64,000 nt of DNA from Sandaracinus amylolyticus (GTDB taxonomy: Bacteria; Myxococcota_A; Polyangia; Polyangiales; Sandaracinaceae), in assembly GCF_021631985.1 (NCBI RefSeq), contig NZ_CP070225.1, positions 6,138,001-6,202,000 of the forward strand, given 5' to 3'. Both the position numbers and the translations under genes were made by a program. Below the pieces are notes generated by a model that was not told the origin of the DNA, searched no databases, and saw nothing but the letters and a program-made list of their open reading frames with translations. Positions 3,870 to 36,603 of the stretch are shown here, piece after piece (position 1 is the stretch's first letter; each line of letters begins with the position of its first letter).

Positions 3870-5198
3870 TCAGTCCTGATCGTCGCCGTCGCGTTCTTTG
3901 TCGCGCAGGCCGTACTGGTCGAGGTAGCGCCGCACCTGTCGTCGCGACCGTCCGAGCCGTCGCGCGAGCTCCGACACGTTGCCGCCGGTCTCGCGCACCA
4001 GCTCCTCGAGGTGCTCGCGCGTGATCTCGATCGGCTCGCGCACGCTCGGCGGATCCGAGATCGTGCGTGCCTTCACGGGCGGCGTGCTCGGGCGCGCGAA
4101 GCGCTCCTCGACCAGCGCGCGATCGAGCACCTCGCGACCCTTGCCGCGCAGCCGCAGCTCGGCCGCGATCTTCAGGAGCTCGCGCACGTTGAACGGCAGC
4201 TCGTGGGTGAGCAGCGCGTCGACGAGATCGGGCGCGAGCGGCGGCGCGTCGGGTCCTAGGCCGCGCGCGAGGATCGGCAGCACGTCCTCGCGTCGCTCGC
4301 GCAGCGGCGGCGTGCGCAGCGTCAGATCCGACAGGCGCGCGTAGAGATCGCCGCGGAACGCACCGCGCTCGACCGCGCTGCGAAGCTCGACGTGGGTGGC
4401 CGCGACCACGCGCACGTCGATCGGCACCGCGCGCTCACCGCCCACCGGCGTGACCACGCGCTCCTCGAGCACGCGCAGGAGGCGCGCCTGCACGCTGGGC
4501 GGCGTCTCCGCGATCTCGTCGAGGAAGATCGTCCCGCGATCGGCGCGCCGCAGGACGCCGTCGTGCGCGCCCTTCGCGCCGGTGAACGCGCCGGCGACGT
4601 GCCCGAAGAGCGTCGAGTCCGCGAGCGACTCGGGGATCGCCGCGCAGTTCACCGCGACGAGCGGCCCTTCACGACCGCTGCGCGCGTGGATCGCGCGCGC
4701 GACGAGCTCCTTGCCGGTGCCGCTCTCGCCGATGACCAGCACCGACGCGTCGGCCTTCGCGACGAGCGCGATCGCCTCGCGCAGCTTCGCCATCGCGGGC
4801 GCACGCCCCACGAGATCGGGGATGTCCGCGTCGCCGAGCGATGCGGGCACCTCGCGCACGACGAAGAACGTGTCCCCCGCGCGCAGCACCGAGCCGTCGA
4901 CGAGGATCGCGTCGGACACGCGCTCGCCGTCGACGAAGGTGCCGTTGGAGCTCGAGTCGACGATCGTCGGCGCCTTCGCCCCGATCAGTGCGATGGTCGC
5001 GTGGGTGCGCGACATGCGCGGATCGGCGATCACCAGCGCGCCGTCGCGCTGTGGGGCGCGACCGATCGCGAGCGGCACGCGACCGATCGCGATCTCCGGG
5101 GGAAGCCCTCGGTCCGGGGAGTGAACGGTGCGCAGCACCCAGCTCGCGACCGAGCTCGTGCGCCGCGGTTCCTCTCGCTGCGTCTCGTCGAACAACAT
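3870..5198 (-). CDS. FHA-domain sigma-54-dependent transcriptional activator
   Basis: 442 aa from the ATG at 5198 (an upstream in-frame ATG at 5273 adds unlikely sequence). The N-terminal FHA domain (about 30-120) carries IGRA, SRTHATI and SSNGTFVDG, the phosphothreonine-binding signatures. The AAA+ domain follows, with Walker A GESGTGKE, the sigma-54 contact loop GAFTGA and Walker B TIFLDEIAE. A Fis-type HTH (VSELARRLGRSRRQVRRYL) ends the protein. It should activate sigma-54 promoters in response to Ser/Thr kinase signalling, a combination common in myxobacteria. No cognate kinase is adjacent. Confidence 0.95.
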   Translation of the reverse strand: MLFDETQREEPRRTSSVASWVLRTVHSPDRGLPPEIAIGRVPLAIGRAPQRDGALVIADPRMSRTHATIALIGAKAPTIVDSSSNGTFVDGERVSDAILVDGSVLRAGDTFFVVREVPASLGDADIPDLVGRAPAMAKLREAIALVAKADASVLVIGESGTGKELVARAIHARSGREGPLVAVNCAAIPESLADSTLFGHVAGAFTGAKGAHDGVLRRADRGTIFLDEIAETPPSVQARLLRVLEERVVTPVGGERAVPIDVRVVAATHVELRSAVERGAFRGDLYARLSDLTLRTPPLRERREDVLPILARGLGPDAPPLAPDLVDALLTHELPFNVRELLKIAAELRLRGKGREVLDRALVEERFARPSTPPVKARTISDPPSVREPIEITREHLEELVRETGGNVSELARRLGRSRRQVRRYLDQYGLRDKERDGDDQD

Positions 5199-5418
5199 GG
5201 AGATTGCGGACGAACGTCCGTCGTGCGTGCCCCCCGCCCCTCGGGGGTGGCCGAATGTAGCGTATCGAGTCAATCGCGCGCCGCTCCTCGAGCTCCGAAG
5301 AGCTCCGAGGACGCGATGAATGCTCGGTGCGTGCCGAACTCGGGAGCGTCGCGCGAAAAGTCCAGTGGCTCTCGCCGAGCGCCATCCGGCGCACTGATCG
5401 CGCCGGCCCTCGGACGGC

Positions 5419-6408
5419 TCAGCGGGTGGCGGTGGGCTTGCGGGACGGCGGCCGGACGTAGGCGCGCTGGCGGGTCGGGGCGGCGTGGTAGAGCGGGCGG
5501 TAGAGATAGCCGGTCACCACGTCGACCCACTGGAACGTCGCGCGGAACGCGCCACTACCGTGGTTGACCCAGGGCTCCTCGGGCGACGCCACGGCGTGCG
5601 TGCGGTCCACGCCGCGTGCACCACGCTGCACGTCCGCGACGACGACCTGCTCGCGGTGATCGCCGGGGTCCTCGGCGATCGTCCCGCCGCACACCACGCG
5701 CGATCGCCCGGCGAGCTTGGTCACGACCTTGGGGCCGAAGCGCGTCGCCATGACCTCGCTGGAGCCGCACGCGTTCGCGAGGACGACCGGTGCGCCGACC
5801 TCGCGCTCGATGCGCTCCGGCATCGCGCGCGTCGCCTCGACGTGCATCGCGCGGTACTCGCGCCACAGCGGGTAGTTCGTCGCGTCGCGGTAGTCGGGCC
5901 ACGCGGCGCCGATCGCGACGAGGTCGACGCCCTCGCGCGCATAGATCGACCAGGGCGTGCGGCGGATCATGTCGGCGCAGATGCCGACGCCGAGGCGGCC
6001 GAGATCGGTCTCGATCACGTGCGCGCTCTCGCCCGCGCGCCAGTACGCGCACTCGGCGGACGCGGGATGGAGCTTGCGGTAGCGGCCGAGGAACCCGTCG
6101 GGCCCGACGACGGCCATCGTGTTGTAGACGTGCGCGCCCTCGCGCTCGCTGAGGCCGGCGACGAGGATCATGTCGCGGGCGCGCGCGAGCTCGTGGAGCG
6201 CGTGCACCGAAGGACCATCGGGCACCGGCTCGGCGACCTCGAAGTTCCACTCGCCGAGCTCGTACCCGGTGAGCGCGAGCTCGGGCATCACCGCGAGCTT
6301 CGCGCCGGCGCGCTGCGCATCCGCGAGCAGCGCGTCGATCCAGGAGATCCTCTGTTCCAGGGGCGCGCGATCGCCGCGCACCTGCACCGCAGCCACTCGT
6401 ACCGTCAC
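5419..6408 (-). CDS. Carbon-nitrogen hydrolase (nitrilase superfamily)
   Basis: 329 aa from a GTG at 6408, chosen so that the protein begins with the first beta strand TVRVAAVQV; a TTG at 6426 would add six residues. The catalytic triad is complete: Glu43 in PELALTGYE, Lys112 in RYRKLHP and Cys144 in GICADM. The superfamily hydrolyses amides, carbamoyl groups or nitriles; this member looks amidase-like rather than a true nitrilase, and its substrate is unknown. The last 60 residues after VNHGSGAF are less conserved. Upstream lie an inverted repeat and a tandem repeat array. Confidence 0.9.
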   Translation of the reverse strand: MTVRVAAVQVRGDRAPLEQRISWIDALLADAQRAGAKLAVMPELALTGYELGEWNFEVAEPVPDGPSVHALHELARARDMILVAGLSEREGAHVYNTMAVVGPDGFLGRYRKLHPASAECAYWRAGESAHVIETDLGRLGVGICADMIRRTPWSIYAREGVDLVAIGAAWPDYRDATNYPLWREYRAMHVEATRAMPERIEREVGAPVVLANACGSSEVMATRFGPKVVTKLAGRSRVVCGGTIAEDPGDHREQVVVADVQRGARGVDRTHAVASPEEPWVNHGSGAFRATFQWVDVVTGYLYRPLYHAAPTRQRAYVRPPSRKPTATR

Positions 6409-6474
6409 GGCGCGCGAAGGTATCAAGATTTACACGGCGCGCGAGCAGAAACTCTCGACCGGGCGGATCGGGCC

Positions 6475-6558
6475 GGAATTCCAACCACGGACGGTCGCCC
6501 AGAGCCCCCGAGAAGGGACGGACCGGACTCCTCGCGGCCCTCCGTGGTTGGAATTTCC
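6475..6558. repeat. Inverted repeat / stem-loop, 15-bp perfect arms
   Basis: Left arm 6475-6491 (GGAATTCCAACCACGGA) and right arm 6541-6558 pair over AATTCCAACCACGGA without mismatch; one extra A in the right arm separates a further GG/CC pair. The enclosed 49 bp are GC-rich. It lies in the 5' leader region of the hydrolase on the minus strand. It could be a structured leader, a terminator for the upstream sigma/SDR transcript, or a small non-autonomous mobile repeat. Confidence 0.6.
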
Positions 6559-6606
6559 GTCGTGTTCGTCCGCTCGGAGCGACGACGACGTCCTTCTTCG
6601 AGGAGC

Positions 6607-6906
6607 CTCGTCTGGCGAGGGGTCGAGGCCGACGTCGTTCTCGACGAGCTCGTCTGGCGAGGGGTCGACGACGTCCCCGTTTTTGACGATTTCGTCTGGC
6701 GGAGGGCGACGACACCCACCTTTTTGACGAGTTCGTCTGGCGGAGGGCGACGACACCCACCTTTTTGACGAGTTCGTCTGGCGGAGGCCGACGACACCCA
6801 CCTTTTTGACGAGTTCGTCTGGGGGAGGGCGACGACACCCACCTTTTTGACGAGCTCGTCTGGCGGAGGGTCGACGACAACCGTTTTTTGACGATTTCGT
6901 CTGGCC
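6607..6906. repeat. Tandem repeat array, seven units of 41-42 bp plus a partial copy
   Basis: Unit starts at 6607, 6649, 6691, 6732, 6773, 6814, 6855 and a partial copy at 6896. Each begins (C/T)TCGTCTGGCG and most end TTTTTGACGAG. Units 3 and 4 are identical and unit 5 differs by one base. The first two and the last are more diverged, as in an array growing from its middle. There are no unique spacers, so it is not a CRISPR array. The T5 tract makes it AT-richer than its surroundings. Confidence 0.9.
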
Positions 6907-6915
6907 GGGGACGGC

Positions 6916-7779
6916 TCAGCCGTCGCTCAGGGTGAAGCGCGCGCCGTCGGCGATGCTGGGCACGTGGTAGTAGTCGCGGATCTGCGCGATCCGGTCGCCG
7001 TCCCACTCGACGCGCACGAAGTACGCGGGGCGATCGCCGCCGTCGCGGAACATCGCGATCGCCGGGGCGCCGTCGACCGATCCCGCGACCGCGCGCAGGC
7101 GCTCGCGGGGCGCGATCTCCGCGTACCGCGACCAGTACTCGGCGACCCGCACACCGCGGCGCTGGGTGCGCGAGACCAGGTCGAGGCGGGACTCCTCGGT
7201 GACGAGCGCACGCAGCGCGTCCCAGTCGCGCGCGTCGAAGAGCCGGGCGTAGAGCCGCAGGCGCGCGTCGATCTCGGGCGGTCGTGGCGTGTCGGCGTCG
7301 CGAGGGACGCGGGCTCGCGCGCGCTGCAGCGCCGACTTCACCGCGGGCACCGTGGTGCCCATCGCGCCGGCCGTCTCCTCGATCGTCAGGCCGAGCACGT
7401 CCTTGAGCACGATCGCGCTGCGCTGGGCGGGCGGCAGCTCGGCGAACACGGTGAGCGCCGCCTCGACGAGCGTGGGATCGACCCCTCGCTCCTCGGGGCC
7501 GGTCGGGTCGGGGACCTCGGCGACCAGGTCGACGTGCTTGCGCTCGTAGCGTCGCAGGAAGTCCATGGCGGTGTTGTGCGCGATGCGGAAGAGCCAGGGC
7601 TCGAGCGGCGGCGGCTCGTCGAGGGTCGCGAGCGCGTAGAACGCCTTGGCGAGCGTGTCCTGCACGACGTCCTCGCCGTCGAAGACCGAGCCGGTCATGC
7701 GGGCGCAGTAGCGGTGCAGCCGCGGCCGCAGGTGCGCGACGAGCGCGTGGAAGCGATCGAGATCGGGCGAGGTGCTCAT
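6916..7779 (-). CDS. ECF RNA polymerase sigma factor with C-terminal NTF2/SnoaL-like domain
   Basis: 287 aa from the ATG at 7779. Region 2 is seen in DGEDVVQDTLAKAFYAL and WLFRIAHNTAMDFLRR, region 4 in ELPPAQRSAIVLKDVLGLTIEETAGAMGTTVPAVKSALQRAR (about 110-160). The C-terminal 120 residues (DARLRLYARLFDARDWDALRALV, later VRVEWDGDRIAQIRDYYHV) form an NTF2-like domain. Such fusions occur in SigJ- and ECF41-like factors, where the extra domain tunes activity without a classical anti-sigma factor. Its ATG overlaps the stop of the upstream SDR gene by four bases, so the two are co-translated. Confidence 0.93.
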   Translation of the reverse strand: MSTSPDLDRFHALVAHLRPRLHRYCARMTGSVFDGEDVVQDTLAKAFYALATLDEPPPLEPWLFRIAHNTAMDFLRRYERKHVDLVAEVPDPTGPEERGVDPTLVEAALTVFAELPPAQRSAIVLKDVLGLTIEETAGAMGTTVPAVKSALQRARARVPRDADTPRPPEIDARLRLYARLFDARDWDALRALVTEESRLDLVSRTQRRGVRVAEYWSRYAEIAPRERLRAVAGSVDGAPAIAMFRDGGDRPAYFVRVEWDGDRIAQIRDYYHVPSIADGARFTLSDG

Positions 7780-27605: not shown

Positions 27606-28838
27606 ATGTCGCATCCGGTCGTGCAGCCGCTCACCGCCTACCAGCGCAAGCTCTTCGTCTTCCTCGGCGTCGCGACGTTCTTCGAGGGCTTCGATCAGAT
27701 GGCGCTCGCGCAGATCCTCCCGACGCTGCGCGACGAGATGCACCTCGGCGAGTGGGAGACCGGCCTGCTCGTCGCGTTCGTGAACCTCGGCACCGTCGTC
27801 GCGTATCTGCTGGTGCGACAAGCCGACGTGTGGGGCCGGCGCGTCGTGCTCTCGCTGACCATCGCGGGCTACACGCTCTTCTCGTTCGCGAGCGGCCTCG
27901 TGTCGTCGCCCTGGCTCTTCGCTGCGCTGCAGTTCGTCGCGCGCGTTTTCCTCATCGGCGAGTGGGCGGTCTCGGTCATCTACGCGGCCGAGGAATTCCC
28001 GGCCTCGCGCCGCGGCATGGTCATCGGCGTGATCAGCGCGTGGAGCGCGCTCGGCGCGGTCGTCTGCGCGGGCATCGTCCCGCTGCTCGTCCGCTCTCCG
28101 TTCGGGTGGAGGACCGTGTACTTCGTGGGCACGGTGCCGCTCGTGCTGCTCGCGTTCTCGCGTCGCTCGCTGCGCGAGACCGAGCGCTTCGCGGCCCTCG
28201 CGCCCGAAGAGCGCGTCGCCTCGTCGCTCACGCGCATCCTGCGCACGCCGTATCGCGCTCGCGTGCTGCAGCTCGCGCTGATCTGGGGCCTCACCTACGT
28301 GTGCACGCAGACCGCGGTGACCTTCTTCAAGCAGCACGCGGTCGAGGATCTCGGCATGCCGGACACCCGCGTCGGTCTGCTGATCAGCGTCGCCGCGGTG
28401 GTCTCGATGCCGCTGGTGTTCATGGTCGGACGGCTCCTCGACGTCACCGGACGACGCCGCGGATCGATCGTCATCTTCCTGCTCACCGCGGCGGGCGCGC
28501 TCGGCAGCTACACGCTCGAGGGCGAAGGGATGCTCTTCGTCCCGGTGGTGCTCGCCATCTTCGGCGCATCCGCGGTGCTGCCCGCGCTCAATGCGTTCAC
28601 CACCGAGCTCTTCCCGACCGAGCTGCGCTCCGACGCCTTCGCGTGGTCGAACAACCTGCTCGGTCGTCTCGGCTACGTCGTCGCGCCGATCGCGGTGGGC
28701 CTCGCCGCCGAAGAGATCGGCTGGGGCCTCGCCGTCGCGTCGACCGCGATCGGACCGATCCTCGCGCTCGTGCTGATCCTCAAGTGGATGCCCGAGACGC
28801 GCGGCCGCGAGCTCGAGGACACCTCTGCGATGCACTGA
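27606..28838 (+). CDS. Major facilitator superfamily transporter
   Basis: 410 aa from the ATG at 27606. Twelve predicted membrane helices. The N-terminal motif FLGVATFFEGFDQMALAQILP and RQADVWGRRVVL belong to the metabolite:H+/aromatic-acid type MFS group, and RLLDVTGRRRGSIVIF repeats the loop motif in the second half. ETRGRELED at the C-terminus is the usual sugar/organic-anion signature. Substrate unknown. It is convergent with the FAD oxidase gene across a terminator-like hairpin and could export or import the product of the neighbouring prenyltransferase locus. Confidence 0.92.
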   Translation: MSHPVVQPLTAYQRKLFVFLGVATFFEGFDQMALAQILPTLRDEMHLGEWETGLLVAFVNLGTVVAYLLVRQADVWGRRVVLSLTIAGYTLFSFASGLVSSPWLFAALQFVARVFLIGEWAVSVIYAAEEFPASRRGMVIGVISAWSALGAVVCAGIVPLLVRSPFGWRTVYFVGTVPLVLLAFSRRSLRETERFAALAPEERVASSLTRILRTPYRARVLQLALIWGLTYVCTQTAVTFFKQHAVEDLGMPDTRVGLLISVAAVVSMPLVFMVGRLLDVTGRRRGSIVIFLLTAAGALGSYTLEGEGMLFVPVVLAIFGASAVLPALNAFTTELFPTELRSDAFAWSNNLLGRLGYVVAPIAVGLAAEEIGWGLAVASTAIGPILALVLILKWMPETRGRELEDTSAMH

Positions 28839-28842
28839 AATG

Positions 28843-28881
28843 GAGAACGCGCGCCCGGCAGCGAGCCGAGCGCGCGTTCTC
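28843..28881. terminator. Hairpin between convergent MFS and FAD-oxidase genes
   Basis: Perfect 12-bp arms GAGAACGCGCGC (28843-28854) and GCGCGCGTTCTC (28870-28881) with a 15-nt loop, starting five bases after the MFS stop. There is no long T tract, as is common in very GC-rich genomes. The position between two convergent genes suits a bidirectional terminator. Confidence 0.78.
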
Positions 28882-28899
28882 GTGTGGATCTTCCGGCGA

Positions 28900-30390
28900 T
28901 CAGCAGTCGTCGTCGAAGATGCCCGGCCCCGGCGTCAGGATGTTGTCCGGGTCGAAGTACGCCTTCGAGACCTGCGCGCGCAGCCACTCGGATCCGTAGT
29001 GACGACGCCAGTCGGCGCGCGTGAAGTCGAGCGTGCCGATCGGATAGCGATAGCCACCGACCGCCACCGCGCGATCGAACCACGCGCGGTTGCGCGCACG
29101 CTTCGCCGCTGCGTACGAGGGCTCGAACCCCGGCGCGTTGTTCGCGGTGAGCACGTCGAAGAGCCACACCACGTCGTCGTCGGGCAGACGGAACATCGGC
29201 CGCGTGATCGTCGACGTCTTCAGCGGGAAGACGAGGATGAATCCCGCGATGCCGAGGTCGTCGGGCGCCAGCGAGGTGAGCGTGTCGTCGACGTACTCCT
29301 CGACGTCGCTGTCGGGCAGGAACACGTCGAACCACGGCTTCATCGCGCCCGCCCAGAGCCCGATCGACGACAGGAACGCGATGCCCTGGTCGACACGCGT
29401 GTGGTAGTCGAAATAGGGCCCGTCGAGCTCGACCATGTTCGCGGGATCGAACTGCAGGCCGCGGAGCAGATACGCCGTGTCGGGCGGCGATCCCGCGTCG
29501 TACCACTGCGCCGTGTACATCTCGTAGAACCACGCGCCGGTCGCGGGGTCCTGCTTCGCTCCGCCGTAGACGAGGTCGATCTCCTCGCGCGCGACGAGCG
29601 TGCGCATGTCGTCGAAGAACGTGCCGATGTCGTCGTAGCGGATCGTCTGATCACGCACGAGCGCACCGACCGTCACGAGCCGCAGCTTCGCGCGGACGAT
29701 GATCGCGTACTGACCGACGCCCGCGAGCACCGCCTCGAAGAGCGAGCGGTTGCGCGACATCGAGCAGACCTCGAGCGTGCCGCGTCCGGTCACGACGGTG
29801 AGCTCGAGGACGTGCTGCACCTGCACGCCACGCTTGTAGGCCATGCCGCTGATGCCGCCCATCGAGAGCGTTCCGCCGACCGAGAGGCCCTGGAAGCCCG
29901 TGAGCACCGGCGGCGACTGGCTCGTCGCGAGCGTATGGGTCAGCAGGTTCGCCCACGTCGAGCCCGCGTCGACGACGGCGTAGCCCGCACCGATCTCGTG
30001 CACGGCGTTCAACGTCGCCATGTCGATGAGCAGGCCGTTCTGGACGAGGCCCTGACCGTCGGTCGAATGGGCCTGACCACGCGCCGCGACTTTGATCTCG
30101 CGGTCACGACAAAAGCGCACCATGCGCTGGACGTCGGCGATGGAGCCGGGTCGCAGCACCGCTGCCGGCGTCTGGAAGACGAGCGTGCCCTTGTCGTTGC
30201 TGTACGCGGCACGTGTCGAGACGTCGGTGAGGAGCTGGCCGTCGAGGGCTGGCACTGCGTCGAACGCATCACAGCCCGAGTACCCCTGGGCGACCCACGC
30301 GCGCGCCGAGGAGCTGAACCCGACGACGGCTGCCGCAGCACCCACGGTGGCCGTCGCACGCAGGAACTCACGCCGATTCGTCACGTCCAT
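28900..30390 (-). CDS. Exported FAD-linked oxidase, cytokinin-dehydrogenase-like
   Basis: 496 aa from the ATG at 30390. Tat signal NRREFLRATATVGAAAAVVGF with cleavage near ARA. FAD-binding PCMH domain: VLRPGSIADVQRMVRFCRDREIKVAARGQAHSTDGQ (the HS pair sits where covalent FAD attaches) and TLSMGGISGMAYKRG. The C-terminal half (MKPWFDVFLPDSDVEEYVDDTL and FDPDNILTPGPGIFDDD) follows the plant-type cytokinin dehydrogenase substrate domain. Likely oxidises an amine or a prenylated side chain outside the cytoplasm using oxygen or another acceptor. It faces the DMATS-type gene across a shared promoter region, which suggests a joint pathway. Confidence 0.88.
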   Translation of the reverse strand: MDVTNRREFLRATATVGAAAAVVGFSSSARAWVAQGYSGCDAFDAVPALDGQLLTDVSTRAAYSNDKGTLVFQTPAAVLRPGSIADVQRMVRFCRDREIKVAARGQAHSTDGQGLVQNGLLIDMATLNAVHEIGAGYAVVDAGSTWANLLTHTLATSQSPPVLTGFQGLSVGGTLSMGGISGMAYKRGVQVQHVLELTVVTGRGTLEVCSMSRNRSLFEAVLAGVGQYAIIVRAKLRLVTVGALVRDQTIRYDDIGTFFDDMRTLVAREEIDLVYGGAKQDPATGAWFYEMYTAQWYDAGSPPDTAYLLRGLQFDPANMVELDGPYFDYHTRVDQGIAFLSSIGLWAGAMKPWFDVFLPDSDVEEYVDDTLTSLAPDDLGIAGFILVFPLKTSTITRPMFRLPDDDVVWLFDVLTANNAPGFEPSYAAAKRARNRAWFDRAVAVGGYRYPIGTLDFTRADWRRHYGSEWLRAQVSKAYFDPDNILTPGPGIFDDDC

Positions 30391-30748
30391 GAAACCTCCT
30401 CTGAACGAGAGTCGCCCTCGCAGCTCGCGCTCACGCGGCCGCCGGGGACTGCTTCGGAGCGGGTTGGGCGCATCCGTCTGCAGTACCGTTTTTTAGTCTG
30501 ACACCACTCCTAGTCTTCGTGCAACCCAATTGGGATCGAGCATGACATTGCGGCGCTCGAGTCCGTTTAGGGGATTTCCCCGACAACGGTCTCAGACGAG
30601 TGTTGTACAAGTACGGATGGCCCCGACCCGCGCTGACTGTTGTTCAGCGCCCCATGTCGGGAGTCGGTGGTCCCCGCCTCGCCTTCCAAGGACCGCGAAT
30701 CACCCAGAGCGTCTCTCCGATCAGCAGTTTTCTTTCGCAGGAGGAGTG
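30391..30748. promoter_or_regulatory. Divergent promoter region, locally AT-rich
   Basis: 358 bp between the divergent FAD oxidase and prenyltransferase genes with no credible gene. The row 30481-30540 counts to about 48% GC, against about 72% in typical coding rows. It contains a T6 tract near 30489, the palindrome CCCAATTGGG (30525-30534) and the palindrome TTGTACAA (30603-30610). A strong ribosome binding site AGGAGGAG lies just before the prenyltransferase ATG. Probably holds promoters and operators for both directions; no specific factor can be named. Confidence 0.65.
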
Positions 30749-32497
30749 ATGAAGCAGTACAAGCGTGATGTGGAGCGTCCGTCGACGGATGGAGTCCGTG
30801 TCATCCATCGCGCACATGCGCAGGGCCCGAGTCTCCTGGATTTCGGTGCCCGTCGACTCGAAGCCTTGTGTCTGGCCGCTGGATTCGAATCTGCGACGAG
30901 TGAGGTCGTCGACACCTTTCGTGCGCTGTTGTCGCCTTGGGGCGACAGACCGCTCCATCATCGCACTTCGTCTCCCGATGGAGTGTGGGTGTCGGACATC
31001 AGCGACGACAACACGCCAATCGAGCTATCCGCCGCGATCGCTGCGGGCGAAGTAGAGGTTCGAGTCCTCCTCGAGGCACAGGCCGAGGAGCCGACTCTCC
31101 CTGCTTATCGCGCCGCCGCGATCGCGTTGACGGAACGGTTGGAGCGTGACCACGGCGCCGATCTCTCGCGCTTCCGCGTCGTCCAGGACCTGTTCCTCCC
31201 CGACGACATGCACGGTCCCTTCGCGCTCTGGCACTCCGCGGTGTTCCGCCGCGGTCGCCCGCCGGCGTTCAAGGCCTATTTCAATCCCCAGGCGTACGGT
31301 CGCGGGCGCGCGCAGTCGGTCGTCGAGGAGGCGCTGCACCGCCTCGGGTTCGACGGCGCGTGGGCCTCGCTCTGCCGCACCGCGCGGCGCGGGCCGCACC
31401 TCGACGAGCTCAAGTACTTCGCGCTCGATCTCGTGGCGGATCCCAAGGCGCGCGTGAAGGTCTACGTGCGCCACCACGACGCGACCGCTGCGGATCTCGA
31501 GGCCGCGTGCAGCGGCGCCGAGAGCTACACACCCGGCGAGGTGCACGAGTTCGTGCGCGCGATGGGCGGCGACCGCGAGCGGCTCGCAGCACGCGCGACG
31601 TTCACTTGCTCGGCGCTCGTCGAGGGCAGCGTGCGTCCCGCCGCGACCACGGTGTACGTGCCGATCTGCGCGTACGCGCCCGACGATCTCGCGGTGCAGC
31701 AGCGCGTGCACGCCTATCTCGTCGAGCACGGGATGGACCCCGCGCCGTACGACCAGCTCGTGCGTGGCTATGCGGAGCGCCCGCTCGATGCCGGCGTCGG
31801 CATGCAGAGCTGGGTCGCGTTCCGGCGTCACCACGACGATCCGCGTCTCACCGTCTATCTCGCGACCGAGGCGGCGAAGGTGCACCCGCGGGGCTCGGTG
31901 CCCGCGGCGACCGGCGACCGGCTCGCGTTCGCGAGCGCGGAGGCCGTGCTCCGCACCATGTCCGAGTACGACGTCTCGGATCACCCGCTCTTGCGCCGCC
32001 TCTCGCGCGGCGCGGATGCGACGAACGAGATGCTGCGCCTCGCCCGCGAGCTCTGCGTCGGGCTCGGGACGCAGCGCGCGCGCTGGCTCGCTGCGGCGGG
32101 ATCGAGCGCCGACGACCGCGAGATGCACCGCACGCTCGAGCTCGATCTCGCGCGCATCGAGGCGGCGCTCGGCGGGCTCGCTCCGGACGGACACGCGGAC
32201 GAGCTCGACGAGCTGCTCGGTGCGCGCATCGCGCCTGCCGACGCGGTCGAGGCGATCGCCGCGCTGGTCGCGTCCGATGCCGCGGTGCAGCAGGTGCTCG
32301 CGGCGATCGACGCGTGCAGCTCGCCCGCGACCTCGCTCGCGAGCGCGCGCAGCGAGGCGCACGCCGCGCTCGTGCGCAGCGTGCCCACCGCTCGACGCGC
32401 CATCGCGTCGATGCGCAGCGGCGCGATGTCGGTCCACTCGGCGCTCTGGGAGTGGCTCGACGATCGCTACGTCGAACGCTTCGCTGCGAACGAGTGA
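30749..32497 (+). CDS. DMATS-type aromatic prenyltransferase with C-terminal helical extension
   Basis: 582 aa from the ATG at 30749, with AGGAGGAG just upstream. Residues 1-400 follow the tryptophan dimethylallyltransferase (ABBA barrel) family: KAYFNPQAYG (175-184), ELKYFALDLVADPKARVKVYV (about 220-240), TVYVPICAY (301-309), then MQSWVAFRR and PRLTVYLATEA (352-375). The K-x-Y and Y-x-P type residues line the diphosphate-binding pocket in this family. Usual length is 350-430 aa; here about 180 extra residues form an all-helical tail of unknown fold. Predicted to transfer an isoprenyl group from its diphosphate to an indole or other aromatic acceptor in the cytosol. The first 110 codons have lower GC than the rest. 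Confidence 0.85.
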   Translation: MKQYKRDVERPSTDGVRVIHRAHAQGPSLLDFGARRLEALCLAAGFESATSEVVDTFRALLSPWGDRPLHHRTSSPDGVWVSDISDDNTPIELSAAIAAGEVEVRVLLEAQAEEPTLPAYRAAAIALTERLERDHGADLSRFRVVQDLFLPDDMHGPFALWHSAVFRRGRPPAFKAYFNPQAYGRGRAQSVVEEALHRLGFDGAWASLCRTARRGPHLDELKYFALDLVADPKARVKVYVRHHDATAADLEAACSGAESYTPGEVHEFVRAMGGDRERLAARATFTCSALVEGSVRPAATTVYVPICAYAPDDLAVQQRVHAYLVEHGMDPAPYDQLVRGYAERPLDAGVGMQSWVAFRRHHDDPRLTVYLATEAAKVHPRGSVPAATGDRLAFASAEAVLRTMSEYDVSDHPLLRRLSRGADATNEMLRLARELCVGLGTQRARWLAAAGSSADDREMHRTLELDLARIEAALGGLAPDGHADELDELLGARIAPADAVEAIAALVASDAAVQQVLAAIDACSSPATSLASARSEAHAALVRSVPTARRAIASMRSGAMSVHSALWEWLDDRYVERFAANE

Positions 32498-32590
32498 GCC
32501 ACCACGCGGCGCTCCGCTCGCAGCGGAATGCACTTTCACCATTGCACCGCTGGCGCGAGATGAGGCACCATCGCGCGGCGGGCGAATGAC

Positions 32591-33070
32591 ATGAGCGACG
32601 TCAACTTCGAAGTGCTCGAGAAGGGCTTCGGGATCGCGTTGTGGCGCAACGTCGTGATCCAGATGTCGTTGAACGATCCCAACGAGGCTCGGATGCGCGC
32701 GACTCGCCAAGCGGGGCGCAAGCTCATGTCGCAGACGCGCGGCCCCATCGGGGCCGTGATCGTCGTCGGTCCCAAGTGTCCCGTCCCCGACGCGGTCGCG
32801 CGCGAGCACGCCGTCGGATTCTTGTCCGACATGCGCGAGCGCGCGCGCGGCGTGTGCCTCGTCTTCGAAGGGGACGGGTTCCTCGCGGCAGCGTCGCGCC
32901 TCGCGATGGTCGGGATGATCTCCGCGGCGCGCTTCCCCTTCGAGTACAAGATCGCGCGCTACGACAGCGAGGCCGACGTCTTTCTCCGTCAGCACCTCGA
33001 CACGTGGAGCGCGGGCGAGCTCGTCGACGCGATCAATCGTCTGAGGGTGCGCATCCCCGTGGATTCTTGA
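32591..33070 (+). CDS. Hypothetical protein, STAS-like, 159 aa
   Basis: ATG at 32591, 93 bp after the prenyltransferase. Alternating strands and helices: FEVLEKGFGIALWRNVVIQMSL, PIGAVIVVGPKCPVPDAVAREHAVGFLSDM, RGVCLVFEGDGFLAAASRLAMVGMISAARFPFEYKIARYDSEADVFL. This resembles the STAS/SpoIIAA-like small proteins of unknown role that are common in myxobacterial genomes, some of which bind lipids or regulate partners. No signal peptide and no catalytic motif. Its link to the prenyltransferase locus is by position only. Confidence 0.7.
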   Translation: MSDVNFEVLEKGFGIALWRNVVIQMSLNDPNEARMRATRQAGRKLMSQTRGPIGAVIVVGPKCPVPDAVAREHAVGFLSDMRERARGVCLVFEGDGFLAAASRLAMVGMISAARFPFEYKIARYDSEADVFLRQHLDTWSAGELVDAINRLRVRIPVDS

Positions 33071-33326
33071 GTGCTCGAGCGCGCGAAGCGCGCGGACCGT
33101 AGGGACCGGCGGGCGAGCCGATGTTTCGACGTTTTCGAGCTCGCGCGCGTTCGCGTCGGGGAAAACCCCGACGCGCTGACGTTCCTCGAGCGGATATATC
33201 GAGCGCATGGAGGGCGCTCGCCTCGCGGGTGCGAGGCCGTGGGCGCTCGGCGTCCGTCCTTCTCCTCGACGGAGGAGCGTGCGCGTCGGCGCGACGCCCT
33301 CGTCGAACCACAAACGAGGTGAGCTC

Positions 33327-34034
33327 ATGAAGCGTGTTCTCGCTGCACTCGATCGCGGCTCGGTGGAGCTCGCGCAGGCCCCGCTCTTCGAATTCCTGGC
33401 GGACACTCGCATCCCGGCGCGCAAGAGGCTCTCCTTCGCGCCGCACGTTGCTCACTTCGTGATGTCGTTCGCGGATCTCTACTCGCACGTGCTCAGCGAG
33501 TACCCGCCGCGCGACAAGTACCAGGAGCTCGTGAACGCGCACGCGCGCGAGGACGAGACGCACTGGACGTGGTTCCTGAAGGACCTCGAGAAGCTCGGGG
33601 AGAGCCCGCGCGTGCCGTACACCGACTCGCTGCGCTTCGTGTGGAGCGAGGCGACGCTCAAGACGCGCATGCTCTCGTACCAGATGTGCAAGCTCGGCAT
33701 CGGCGCGAGCTCGCTGCAGAAGCTCGTGCTGGTGCAGGCGATCGAGGGCGCGGGCGCGGTGACGGTCGGGCGCGTGTCGGCGGTCGGTCGCGAGGTCGCG
33801 GCGGAGAGCGGGATCAAGCTCGTCTATCTCGGGCCGCACCACTCGGACACCGAGGGCGAGCACACGCTCGAGGACGACGCGGTGCACGCGATGATCGAGG
33901 CGATCGAGCTCGACGACGCGACGGCGACGCAGCTGATCGCGATGGTGGACGAGACGTTCCGCCACTTCCGCGGGTTCATCGACGAGATGCACGCGCTCGC
34001 GCTCAACGGGCAGAAGCTCGAAGCGAGCACCTGA
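33327..34034 (+). CDS. Heme-oxygenase-fold (TenA/PqqC/HDO-like) protein
   Basis: 235 aa from the ATG at 33327, with GAGGTGA upstream; the frame is open to 33207 but that extension is low-complexity. All-helical, with possible metal ligands E77 and H79 (EDETHWTWF), E140 (AIEGAGAVTVGRV), H171/H172, D174, E178 and H179 (HHSDTEGEHTLED), matching the E-xn-H and D/E-xn-H pattern of heme-oxygenase-like diiron enzymes. Such enzymes carry out N-oxygenation, decarboxylation or C-C cleavage in natural-product pathways. Placement between the prenyltransferase and the P450 suggests a tailoring role. The fold call is by motif spacing. Confidence 0.72.
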   Translation: MKRVLAALDRGSVELAQAPLFEFLADTRIPARKRLSFAPHVAHFVMSFADLYSHVLSEYPPRDKYQELVNAHAREDETHWTWFLKDLEKLGESPRVPYTDSLRFVWSEATLKTRMLSYQMCKLGIGASSLQKLVLVQAIEGAGAVTVGRVSAVGREVAAESGIKLVYLGPHHSDTEGEHTLEDDAVHAMIEAIELDDATATQLIAMVDETFRHFRGFIDEMHALALNGQKLEAST

Positions 34035-34041
34035 GACGAGA

Positions 34042-34069
34042 CGACGAGCCACCGCGAGGTGGCTCGTCG
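34042..34069 (+). terminator. Hairpin after HDO-like gene
   Basis: Perfect 12-bp arms CGACGAGCCACC (34042-34053) and GGTGGCTCGTCG (34058-34069) with loop GCGA, a stable tetraloop, followed by CGTTTCGGG. It starts eight bases after the HDO-like stop and separates that gene from the P450, so the P450 may be transcribed separately or by read-through. Confidence 0.8.
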
Positions 34070-34123
34070 CGTTTCGGGCTTGTCTTGGCGTCGTGGTCGC
34101 ACCTATCACTCGATAGCCTCGCC

Positions 34124-35458
34124 ATGACCACCAAGCTGCCGCCCGGTCCGCGCTGGACCCTCCCCGCGACGTTGCGCCTGATCCGCGACCCCTACGCGAC
34201 GCTGCTCGAGCTGCGCGCGGAGTACGGCGATCTGGTCACGTTCCCCTCGCCCAACGGGCGCGTGGTGCTCGCGATGACGCCCGAGCTCGTGAAGCCGATC
34301 TTCACGGCATCGCCCGATTGCTTCGGCGCGTGGGCGGTGGGCACGACGAGCGTGGTGCTCGGACCGCGCTCGCTGATCGTGAGCGAGGGCGAGATCCACA
34401 AGCGCGATCGCAAGCTGCTCACGCCGGCGTTCCACGGTGCGCGCATGCGCGCGTACGGCGACGCGATGCGCGCGCTCGCGCGGCGCCGCTTCGACGCGGC
34501 GATGAAGCCGGGCGCGACGGTGACGCTCCAGGACGTCACCACCGACATCACGATGGACGTGATCCTGCGGACGGTGTTCGGCGTCGGTGAGGGCGCGGCG
34601 TTCGACGAGGGCCGCGCGATGATGGGCGAGATCGTGCGCGGCATGTCGCCGCTGCTCTTCTTCACGAAGGCCTCGCACACGCCGTTCTTCCCGCCGTGGC
34701 GCCGCTTCGTGCGCATCCGCGAGCGCTTCCGTGCGTGGCTCGACGCGCGCACCGCGGAGGCGCGCGCCCGCGGTGACGAAGGGAGCGACGTGCTCGCGAT
34801 GATGCTCGCCGCTCGCTACGACGACGGCAGCGCGATGAGCGACGACGACGTCGCGGCGCAGCTCGTGACGCTGCTCTTCGCGGGGCACGAGACGACCGCG
34901 ATCGCGCTCGCGTGGGCGGTGCACTGGCTCGGTCGTCACCCCCGCACGCTCGCGCTCCTGCGCGCGGAGATCGCGAGCGTGGGGATCGATGCCGACCCCG
35001 AGGTGATCGCGAAGCTGCCGTACCTGTCGGCGGTGTGCGACGAGACGCTGCGGCTGCACCCGATCGTGACCGAGAACCTGCGCATGCTGCGCAAGCCGTT
35101 CGAGCTCGGCGGGTTCACGATCCCCGCGGGCATCGGCGTCGCGGCGGCGATCGGCGCGATCCACGCGGACCCTGCGATCTATCCCGAGCCCGATGCGTTC
35201 CGGCCCGAGCGCTTCCTCGAGCGGAAGTACAACGCGTTCGAGCACCTGCCGTTCGGCGGTGGTCATCGACGCTGCATCGGCGCGGCGTTCGCCGAGTACG
35301 AGATGCGCATCGCGCTCGCGGTGCTGGTCGACGGATGGGACCTCGACCTGGTGCACCGCGACGAGCGACCGGTGCGGCGCAGCGTGACGATGGGCCCCGC
35401 GCACGGCGTACCGGTGAAGGTCCTCGGACGTCGCGCGAGCGTGCCCGCAGCCGCCTGA
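34124..35458 (+). CDS. Cytochrome P450
   Basis: 444 aa from the ATG at 34124. All signatures are present: the proline-rich opening LPPGPRW, I-helix oxygen-binding motif LLFAGHETTAIALAW, K-helix ExxR in DETLRLHP, the PERF-like FRPERFLERKYN and heme-binding FGGGHRRCIGAAFAEYEM with the proximal Cys. The sequence resembles the bacterial members of the CYP4/CYP110-like soluble group rather than CYP107-type enzymes. No membrane anchor. No redox partner gene is adjacent. Last gene of the candidate prenylation locus; likely hydroxylates the prenylated product or a lipid. Confidence 0.93.
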   Translation: MTTKLPPGPRWTLPATLRLIRDPYATLLELRAEYGDLVTFPSPNGRVVLAMTPELVKPIFTASPDCFGAWAVGTTSVVLGPRSLIVSEGEIHKRDRKLLTPAFHGARMRAYGDAMRALARRRFDAAMKPGATVTLQDVTTDITMDVILRTVFGVGEGAAFDEGRAMMGEIVRGMSPLLFFTKASHTPFFPPWRRFVRIRERFRAWLDARTAEARARGDEGSDVLAMMLAARYDDGSAMSDDDVAAQLVTLLFAGHETTAIALAWAVHWLGRHPRTLALLRAEIASVGIDADPEVIAKLPYLSAVCDETLRLHPIVTENLRMLRKPFELGGFTIPAGIGVAAAIGAIHADPAIYPEPDAFRPERFLERKYNAFEHLPFGGGHRRCIGAAFAEYEMRIALAVLVDGWDLDLVHRDERPVRRSVTMGPAHGVPVKVLGRRASVPAAA

Positions 35459-35550
35459 TCGCGGTCGAGCGCGAGCCGCTCACGATGTGGCGCGAGCCGC
35501 TCGCAGGATCGCGCGCGACGGCTGCGCGAGGTCCGTGACACGACGAGCTG

Positions 35551-36603
35551 ATGCTCGGACCCAGCGCGCTCGCGCGGCTCGACGATCGACTGGTCGAGCG
35601 CATCGCGCGCGGAGAGCGGCTCGGCGCGGTGATCGCGTCGGCGCTCGCGACGATCGCGCTCGGTGCGGGCGCGTATGGCGTCGCGGTGGGGACGTGGCGC
35701 GCGCCGGCGCAGGCGTGCTTCACCGCGATCAAGCTTCCGCTGCTCTTCGTGGCGGTCGCGGCGTGCACGATCGCGCTCTCCGCGATGCTCGCCGCGCTCC
35801 TCCGCGCGCGGCTCGGGCTCGCGCAGACGACGGTGTGCGTGCTGACGTCGTTCGCGATCGCGTCGGCGGTGTTGGGCTCGCTCGCGCCGATCGCGTTGTG
35901 GATCGCGGCGAGCGCGCCGCCCCCCGATCCGAGCGTGCTCGGGCTCGCCGAGGACGACCCGCGCGCTCGCCCTTCGCTCGAGGTCGCGCGCGCGCTGCTG
36001 CTCGTGCACGTCGCCGCGATCGCGGTCGCGGGGACGATCGGGGTGGCGCGCCTGCGGGCGCTGCTCGTGCGGCTCGGGAACGACGAGCACGTCGCACGAC
36101 GGGTGATCGTCGCCTGGACCACGGCGCAGCTCCTCGTGGGGTCGCAGCTCTCGTGGATCGCGCGCCCGTTCTTCGGACGGCCGCACCTGCCGCCGACCTT
36201 CTCGGTGCACGACGCGCTCGAGGGGAGCTTCTACGAAGAGGTCTGGGTGCTCGCGCGGAGCACGTTCGGTCCGGGGGCGCCGCTCGCAGTCGTGATCGCG
36301 CTCGGGGCGCTCGCGGTCGGGCTCGCGCGCAGCCTGCATCGCGAGGCGCGGCGGGTGCTCGCGCGGGTCGAGCCCCACGGCCTCGTGCTGGGCGGTCACG
36401 CGGTGCCGTGGCGCGCCATCGCGCGGGTCGAGGCACGTGGTGCGCGAGTGATCGTCGAGGGCGTGGCCGACGTCGCGCTCGAGGTGGAGCGATGGTGCGT
36501 CGCGTGCCGCGATCCCGCGGACGCGCGTGCGCTCGCAGCGCTCGTCGATCGAGCACGAGCGAGCGCTGCGCACGGCGCCTACCGCGGCGCGGCAGTGGTG
36601 TGA
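35551..36603 (+). CDS. Polytopic membrane protein with cytosolic C-terminal domain
   Basis: 350 aa from the ATG at 35551. About six hydrophobic helices fall near residues 25-50, 60-86, 95-125, 150-170, 190-206 and 240-262. A soluble domain follows: LARVEPHGLVLGGHAVPWRAIARVEARGARVIVEGVADVALEVERW, a small beta-rich unit resembling bacterial PH-like domains. The central cytosolic or periplasmic loop contains FGRPHLPPTFSVHDALEGSFYEEVW. Not recognised as a named family. No clear operon partner: the P450 is 92 bp upstream and the next gene is convergent and adjacent. Confidence 0.75.
   Translation: MLGPSALARLDDRLVERIARGERLGAVIASALATIALGAGAYGVAVGTWRAPAQACFTAIKLPLLFVAVAACTIALSAMLAALLRARLGLAQTTVCVLTSFAIASAVLGSLAPIALWIAASAPPPDPSVLGLAEDDPRARPSLEVARALLLVHVAAIAVAGTIGVARLRALLVRLGNDEHVARRVIVAWTTAQLLVGSQLSWIARPFFGRPHLPPTFSVHDALEGSFYEEVWVLARSTFGPGAPLAVVIALGALAVGLARSLHREARRVLARVEPHGLVLGGHAVPWRAIARVEARGARVIVEGVADVALEVERWCVACRDPADARALAALVDRARASAAHGAYRGAAVV

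Follow-up and report, generated by a model that had tools for sequence, protein, structure and literature searches.

In actinomycetes, mini-clusters that combine a DMATS gene with a tryptophanase gene and a flavin monooxygenase gene lead to simple prenylindoles, and cytokinin dehydrogenases are known to oxidise isoprenoid side chains. AetD binds its iron through D76, H79, E140, H172, E176 and H179 and contacts its substrate through F48 and Y167; it expels two carbons as glyoxylate and glycolate while retaining the beta carbon, and yields indole-3-carbaldehyde besides the nitrile (PMC11611611). It is also active on substrates without ring halogens (bromines) (PMC10654658). In mulberry, flavin adenine dinucleotide (FAD)-dependent diene synthases convert an aryl prenyl group to a diene (PMC10954736). 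Indiacens A and B were isolated from Sandaracinus amylolyticus and have also been seen in S. defensii (PMC9306752); indiacen A is given as 4-[(1E)-3-methylbuta-1,3-dienyl]-1H-indole-3-carbaldehyde (PMC10745709), and in indiacen B the terminal methylene bears a single chlorine (PMC4660955). S. defensii MSr10575 holds its sandarazol genes on a plasmid, and of the 21 clusters predicted on the S. defensii chromosome only the myxochelin cluster has been tied to a product (PMC9306752). Here we analysed a DMATS locus of the MSr10575 genome, lying in a stretch of 64,000 nucleotides (contig NZ_CP070225.1, positions 6,138,001 to 6,202,000) that is called the window below and gives all positions unless another locus is named.

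The core of this locus probably consists of three genes, encoding a DMATS prenyltransferase, a divergently transcribed FAD oxidase and a haem-oxygenase-fold di-iron oxidase (HDO), with an adjacent cytochrome P450 and a major facilitator superfamily (MFS) transporter outside it. We consider it very likely that the three enzymes act jointly in a prenylindole pathway. On sequence evidence and analogy, the locus is probably a minimal tryptophan-tailoring cluster that would make indiacen A, from which indiacen B derives. The observations behind these readings are the enzyme families, the folds, the conserved active-site residues, a linkage maintained across genomes with several gene fusions, and the presence of the locus in both reported indiacen producers, S. 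defensii MSr10575 and S. amylolyticus (G316). The core features are as follows.

28900..30390, minus strand: FAD oxidase of cytokinin-dehydrogenase type with a twin-arginine translocation (Tat) signal (PF01565, PF09265, TIGR01409); core gene
30391..30748, no strand: divergent regulatory region between the FAD oxidase and DMATS genes, 358 bp, of which 304 positions are identical with G316
30749..32497, plus strand: DMATS-type indole prenyltransferase of 582 aa, ABBA barrel at about residues 26-383
31871..32494, plus strand: C-terminal extension of the DMATS protein with a haem-oxygenase (HDO-like) fold, lacking the metal ligands (hhalign, alignment)
33327..34034, plus strand: AetD-like haem-oxygenase-fold di-iron oxidase (AetD match, ligand set)

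The original prediction, made from the sequence alone, had proposed a compact prenylated-indole locus spanning 30391-35458. That span holds the DMATS and HDO genes, leaves out the core FAD oxidase and takes in a P450 that is probably not part of the core. All five proteins named in it (those of the core, the P450 and the MFS transporter) are intact open frames. Absent from it were the kinship of the HDO with AetD, the HDO-like DMATS tail, a 159-aa gene that recurs at DMATS loci, and the fit to a product already known from this species.

The linkage was surveyed around 52 DMATS genes from Polyangia, a class in which 42 of 318 genomes carry DMATS; when the phylum was sampled evenly and more widely, no DMATS match lay outside Polyangia. 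An AetD-like HDO gene was found near 21 of the 52 genes, an FAD oxidase gene near 28 and both near 19; gene order and strand varied widely. The association of HDO with FAD oxidase near DMATS gave p 1e-5 in a Fisher test, a value that takes no account of shared ancestry and serves only as an indication. At L065:9048-12506 a single uninterrupted frame of 1153 residues contains DMATS, AetD-like HDO and FAD oxidase domains; DMATS-HDO fusions occur at L035, L043 and L059, and a DMATS-FAD fusion at L055. The genus relative G316 has the locus too, and the proteins of the common genes are 91-97% identical. These data bear out the predicted grouping of the three enzymes, which are linked across many Polyangia and not confined to one genome. 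In named genomes, a scan with the DMATS protein alone found no match, and a scan with the AetD-like alignment A6 gave matches.

The assignment of the 30749 gene to the DMATS/ABBA family was upheld by both profile and fold searches. The protein scored 138.7 bits (E 3e-40) against TIGR03429, which like the scores of all Polyangia members is under the strict cut-off of 163.85, and 58 bits (E 1e-15) against PF11991, for which the cut-off is 25. The start at 30749 is preceded by a clear AGGAGGAG. In the predicted structure (predicted local distance difference test score, pLDDT, 90.9), residues 26-383 form an ABBA barrel that superimposes on 6-DMATS (6zrx) with Z 47.8 and a root-mean-square deviation (rmsd) of 1.8 A over 350 residues at 37% identity. 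Among 44 relatives E92 is invariant and R105, K175, Y177, R235, K237 and Y239 are near-invariant; by analogy with FgaPT2, we take these residues to be the catalytic Glu and the diphosphate-binding Arg, Lys and Tyr. This is the sole DMATS gene of its genome, G316 likewise has one, and a third genome of the genus, G317, gave no DMATS match.

The FAD oxidase matched PF01565 (FAD_binding_4, 3.6e-25) and PF09265 (Cytokin-bind, 2.7e-23), both over their cut-offs, and its profile found cytokinin oxidases as the best matches in the PDB (1e-105). Its RGQAHS segment aligns with RGHGHS of the maize enzyme, the conserved HS motif for FAD. The Tat signal (TIGR01409) lies above cut-off, as had been predicted for this divergent oxidase, and suggests that the proposed diene-forming step takes place outside the cytoplasm. 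The parallel drawn earlier with a berberine-bridge (BBE) enzyme fell away, as the oxidase is of cytokinin-dehydrogenase type: its C-terminal half matches Cytokin-bind, and no BBE domain was reported. Because of its genomic context, a substrate other than N6-prenyladenine is proposed.

For the HDO, a haem-oxygenase fold with di-iron ligands had been expected, and a confident model (pLDDT 92.5) together with the match to AetD substantiated it. Pfam gave a sub-threshold match (PF14518, E 0.037), and a single-sequence phmmer search found AetD at 2.8e-32. The model superimposes on AetD with Z 30, a TM score of 0.91 and 1.6 A over 225 residues at 29% identity; the next family, BesC, reaches Z 16. 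The iron ligands D76, H79, E140, H172, E176 and H179 (a 3-His/3-carboxylate site) and the substrate-contact residues F48 and Y167 are those of AetD at the same residue numbers, and A142 is shared as well. On sequence and model, we propose that the HDO is an AetD-type enzyme that would truncate the tryptophan side chain. A genome-wide search found a single AetD-like gene in the window genome, the neighbour of its sole DMATS gene. In the class, the strongest AetD-like matches lie almost all at DMATS genes; the two exceptions, L090 and L091, sit on short or broken contigs, where the FAD gene or a fragment of DMATS is still present. No DMATS gene lies close to the more distant AetD-like genes, among them those from cyanobacteria, Acinetobacter, Serratia and Pedobacter. 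In the HDO tree the DMATS-linked proteins fall in two clades, the window HDO being in a clade apart from AetD, so that the DMATS-HDO pairing is either old or arose twice. Two arrangements were seen among AetD-like genes away from DMATS: adjacent pairs in cyanobacteria (L107, L109, L114, L115 near 6001-7653 and L118 near 5081-6654), and in Catalimonadaceae bacterium JC749 (L130:4211-6663) an AetD-like gene adjoining a cytokinin-dehydrogenase-type FAD oxidase gene without DMATS.

In the proposed pathway, DMATS would move the dimethylallyl group from dimethylallyl diphosphate (DMAPP) to the benzene ring of L-tryptophan, at C4 if the product is indiacen, as its family suggests. By analogy with AetD, the di-iron site of the HDO would then take the amino-acid end of prenyl-tryptophan and oxidatively cut off two carbons, so that the beta carbon stays behind as indole-3-carbaldehyde or indole-3-carbonitrile. 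The FAD oxidase would abstract hydride at the benzylic/allylic prenyl CH2, and proton loss would give the 3-methylbuta-1,3-dienyl chain, as in the plant FAD diene synthases. The last two steps could run in either order, and the expected end product is 4-(3-methylbuta-1,3-dienyl)indole-3-carbaldehyde. We assign the locus to indiacen because the three changes from tryptophan match the three enzymes; this assignment, which draws on co-occurrence in two close species and on chemical fit, is more probable than any other product, with appreciable room for error. A literature search for indiacen biosynthesis found no gene cluster, most subscription papers being outside the search.

Several points weigh against indiacen as the product. 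The closest characterised DMATS enzymes (6zrx/6zry) prenylate C6, and the indiacens are substituted at C4. The main product of AetD is the nitrile, the aldehyde being an in vitro shunt product. No halogenase was found among the neighbouring genes to explain the chlorination of indiacen B. The 3-carbaldehyde of indiacen A rests on a single secondary citation (PMC10745709), and the main text of the published indiacen B synthesis names no formylation step. Presence in two sister species is in itself a weak product link, because sister species have most genes in common. As for a halogenase elsewhere, the best genome-wide Trp_halogenase match (L082) was rejected as a flavin halogenase candidate, since it has no WxWxIP motif. 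An unlinked flavoenzyme with the WxWxIP-type motif WCWAIP occurs in both producers (L088, G000:C1 near 8,598,468-8,599,505; L089, G316:C1 near 9,656,820-9,657,857); its nearest NCBI model is CmlS, and it scores far under the cut-off. It is a candidate only for the chlorinase of indiacen B.

Some of these points would equally suit a different prenylindole made by the same three-enzyme logic, for example a 6-prenylated, dienylated indole-3-carbonitrile, with the indiacens coming from elsewhere in the genome. We regard this as unlikely but deserving of serious weight: the closest characterised DMATS is a 6-DMATS, the nitrile is the main AetD product, and the producers hold many unassigned clusters. 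The DMATS gene of this locus, however, is the only one in each producer genome, and the diene and the truncated side chain fit indiacen. A search for prenyltransferases of the PTase_Orf2 type was empty, although its control was silent too and absence is thus not proven.

The limits of the cluster were judged from the remaining features, which are as follows.

27606..28838, plus strand: MFS transporter (PF07690), membership uncertain
28843..28881, no strand: terminator-like hairpin between the convergent MFS and FAD oxidase genes (fold prediction)
32591..33070, plus strand: accessory 159-aa protein with no assigned function, homologues at nine DMATS loci
34042..34069, plus strand: terminator-like hairpin 3' of the HDO gene, 12-bp perfect stem
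34124..35458, plus strand: cytochrome P450 (PF00067), adjacent and probably outside the core

The P450 (PF00067, E 6e-71) and the MFS transporter (PF07690, E 6e-40) had both been counted as cluster members, with the P450 for example hydroxylating the product and the transporter exporting it. Such a five-gene cluster is rather improbable. Both genes adjoin the core in each of the two Sandaracinus genomes, and export would make sense for an antibiotic; across the surveyed DMATS loci, however, MFS homologues were found only in these two genomes, and P450 homologues in these and at L067, about 5 kb from DMATS. P450 relatives with 37-49% identity are scattered over many genomes of the class, including genomes without the cluster, and the indiacens require no hydroxylation. 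The hairpin noted earlier before the P450 was recovered at 34042-34069; it is conserved in G316, there with a longer stem followed by TTTT, and cuts the P450 off from the HDO gene. We place the P450 outside the three-gene core because its synteny is confined to Sandaracinus apart from L067 and because of this hairpin; on the same two grounds it was ruled out as a core member.

A further alternative concerns the HDO product. SktA, which has the same ligand set, makes 5-bromoskatole from 5-bromo-tryptophan; it has T139, T142 and F214 where AetD has M139, A142 and S214, and residue 214 is related to the C7 substituent of the substrate (PMC13108848). The window HDO has I139, A142 and F214, and Phe214 accordingly fits a substrate without a C7 substituent. 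An SktA-like reaction giving 3-methylindole (skatole) instead of the aldehyde or nitrile is nevertheless quite unlikely: Phe214 and the ligand set are common to SktA, and several sister HDOs at DMATS loci have the SktA-like Thr142, whereas residue 142 of the window enzyme is Ala as in AetD, its Ile139 is neither the Met of AetD nor the Thr of SktA, and skatole offers no direct route to indiacen. That the three genes adjoin by chance or inherited synteny with no joint function is hardly credible, for although the whole neighbourhood is common to the Sandaracinus genomes, the linkage survives rearranged gene orders, changes of orientation and fusions across several families, and the only AetD-like gene of the genome adjoins its only DMATS gene.

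The DMATS protein also carries traces of an HDO of its own. An extra 210-280 residues occur in roughly half of the DMATS proteins from Polyangia, and this tail is a full HDO domain in the group that lies beside a class-V pyridoxal phosphate (PLP) enzyme whose C-terminal domain is that of a kynureninase. In intact tails E99, H109, E163, H194, E198 and H201 are conserved (numbering of the first row of alignment A3), and through them the DMATS-wide profile reaches BesC and CADD in the PDB. The window tail of about 200 residues is homologous to the intact tails (hhalign probability 97.7%, E 1e-12), and alignment with 24 other tails showed that its ligand segments are lost. L049 is in the same state, with a ligand-less tail that is AetD-like. 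An ancestral DMATS-HDO fusion probably preceded this state: the fused HDO would have decayed in the window lineage, with the separate AetD-like HDO now doing the chemistry. More tentatively, it is conceivable that DMATS and the haem-oxygenase-fold di-iron oxidases of Polyangia evolved as one enzyme system, with fused enzymes that both prenylate and truncate and, at the extreme, a single DMATS-HDO-FAD polypeptide, and that the window holds a split version in which the tail is a pseudo-enzyme and a new AetD-type enzyme works with a bacterial C4-prenylating DMATS to give prenylated indole-3-carbaldehydes.

Other DMATS loci have other partners. A tryptophanase gene is present at four (L038:8587-9984, L042:7961-9373, L055 and L060; PRK13238 1.8e-167 for L038), always with an FAD gene and never with an AetD-like gene, an apparent functional swap of tryptophanase and AetD-like HDO as remover of the side chain. 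A kynureninase-like PLP gene lies near 16 DMATS genes, and its sole overlap with an AetD-like gene is at L061, which holds two DMATS genes of different type. The locus types thus differ in how they handle the tryptophan side chain. No tryptophanase gene adjoins the window DMATS, and the best Beta_elim_lyase gene of the genome is elsewhere. In our literature search, no paper joined DMATS with myxobacteria or with tryptophanase, and the sole paper with both AetD and a prenyltransferase was a general cyanotoxin review.

The loci with a DMATS fused to an intact HDO and a kynureninase-like PLP enzyme make up a second type (L041:3610-13327, L044, L045, L046, L048, L051, L054, L063, L064, L067, L068, L069, L073 and L075), where genes for an O-methyltransferase, a FIST protein, a multihaem-like protein and a hybrid histidine kinase are frequent companions. 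Prenyl-tryptophan perhaps meets another fate there, such as prenylated kynurenine or anthranilate. HMG-CoA reductase genes stand beside the DMATS loci L033 (5673-6731) and L036 (6951-8009), perhaps for DMAPP supply.

Within the window locus, the 159-aa protein had no Pfam or NCBIfam match and its gene has no second close copy in the genome. The spacer between this gene and the HDO gene (33071-33326) is strongly structured, with about -140 kcal/mol predicted including short flanks; an Rfam search of 28000-36000, which covers it, gave no match. In the FAD-DMATS spacer (30500-30610), ACACCACTC / GAGTGKTGT form an inverted pair about 90 bp apart that is kept in G316, a candidate regulator site picked by eye.

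If the indiacen assignment is true, the locus supplies the genes for an antibiotic that the genome paper of its producer left without an assigned cluster. AetD chemistry, which belongs to a toxin pathway of cyanobacteria, would then extend to myxobacterial prenylated indoles, and there would be two exchangeable ways to trim prenyl-tryptophan, by AetD-like HDO or by tryptophanase. The natural DMATS-HDO-FAD fusions could serve as compact tools for biocatalysis.

Compared with known systems, the window DMATS resembles the bacterial enzymes Micromonospora olivasterospora 6-DMATS, PriB, IptA, CymD and SCO 5-DMATS in its ABBA barrel (30-37% identity, Z 44-48) and shares their catalytic and diphosphate-binding residues; it differs in its partner genes and in its HDO-fold tail, degenerate here and intact in relatives. 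The HDO agrees with AetD, the nitrile synthase of aetokthonotoxin biosynthesis, in fold, in the six iron ligands and in F48, Y167 and A142, and by analogy a tryptophan-type substrate is expected; unlike AetD it is partnered by DMATS and not by a halogenase, has I139 and F214, and would act on a 4-substituted substrate with an aldehyde as end product. The oxidase has the FAD_binding_4 and cytokinin-binding domains of cytokinin dehydrogenases and by analogy would likewise oxidise an isoprenoid side chain, whereas it is bacterial, Tat-signalled and DMATS-linked, with a prenylindole as the proposed substrate. The mulberry diene synthases MaMO and MaDS are functional analogues of it, MaMO being of the BBE branch, unlike the window oxidase. 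The fungal ergot pathway (DmaW and EasE) is similar in logic only, in that tryptophan is prenylated and an FAD enzyme then oxidises the prenyl group towards a diene; in the window the oxidase is not of BBE type, an HDO is present and the side chain would be removed instead of cyclised. Like the actinomycete mini-clusters, the window locus unites DMATS, a side-chain remover and a flavin enzyme; in contrast to them, it has an AetD-like HDO where they have tryptophanase, and its flavin enzyme belongs to the cytokinin-dehydrogenase type.

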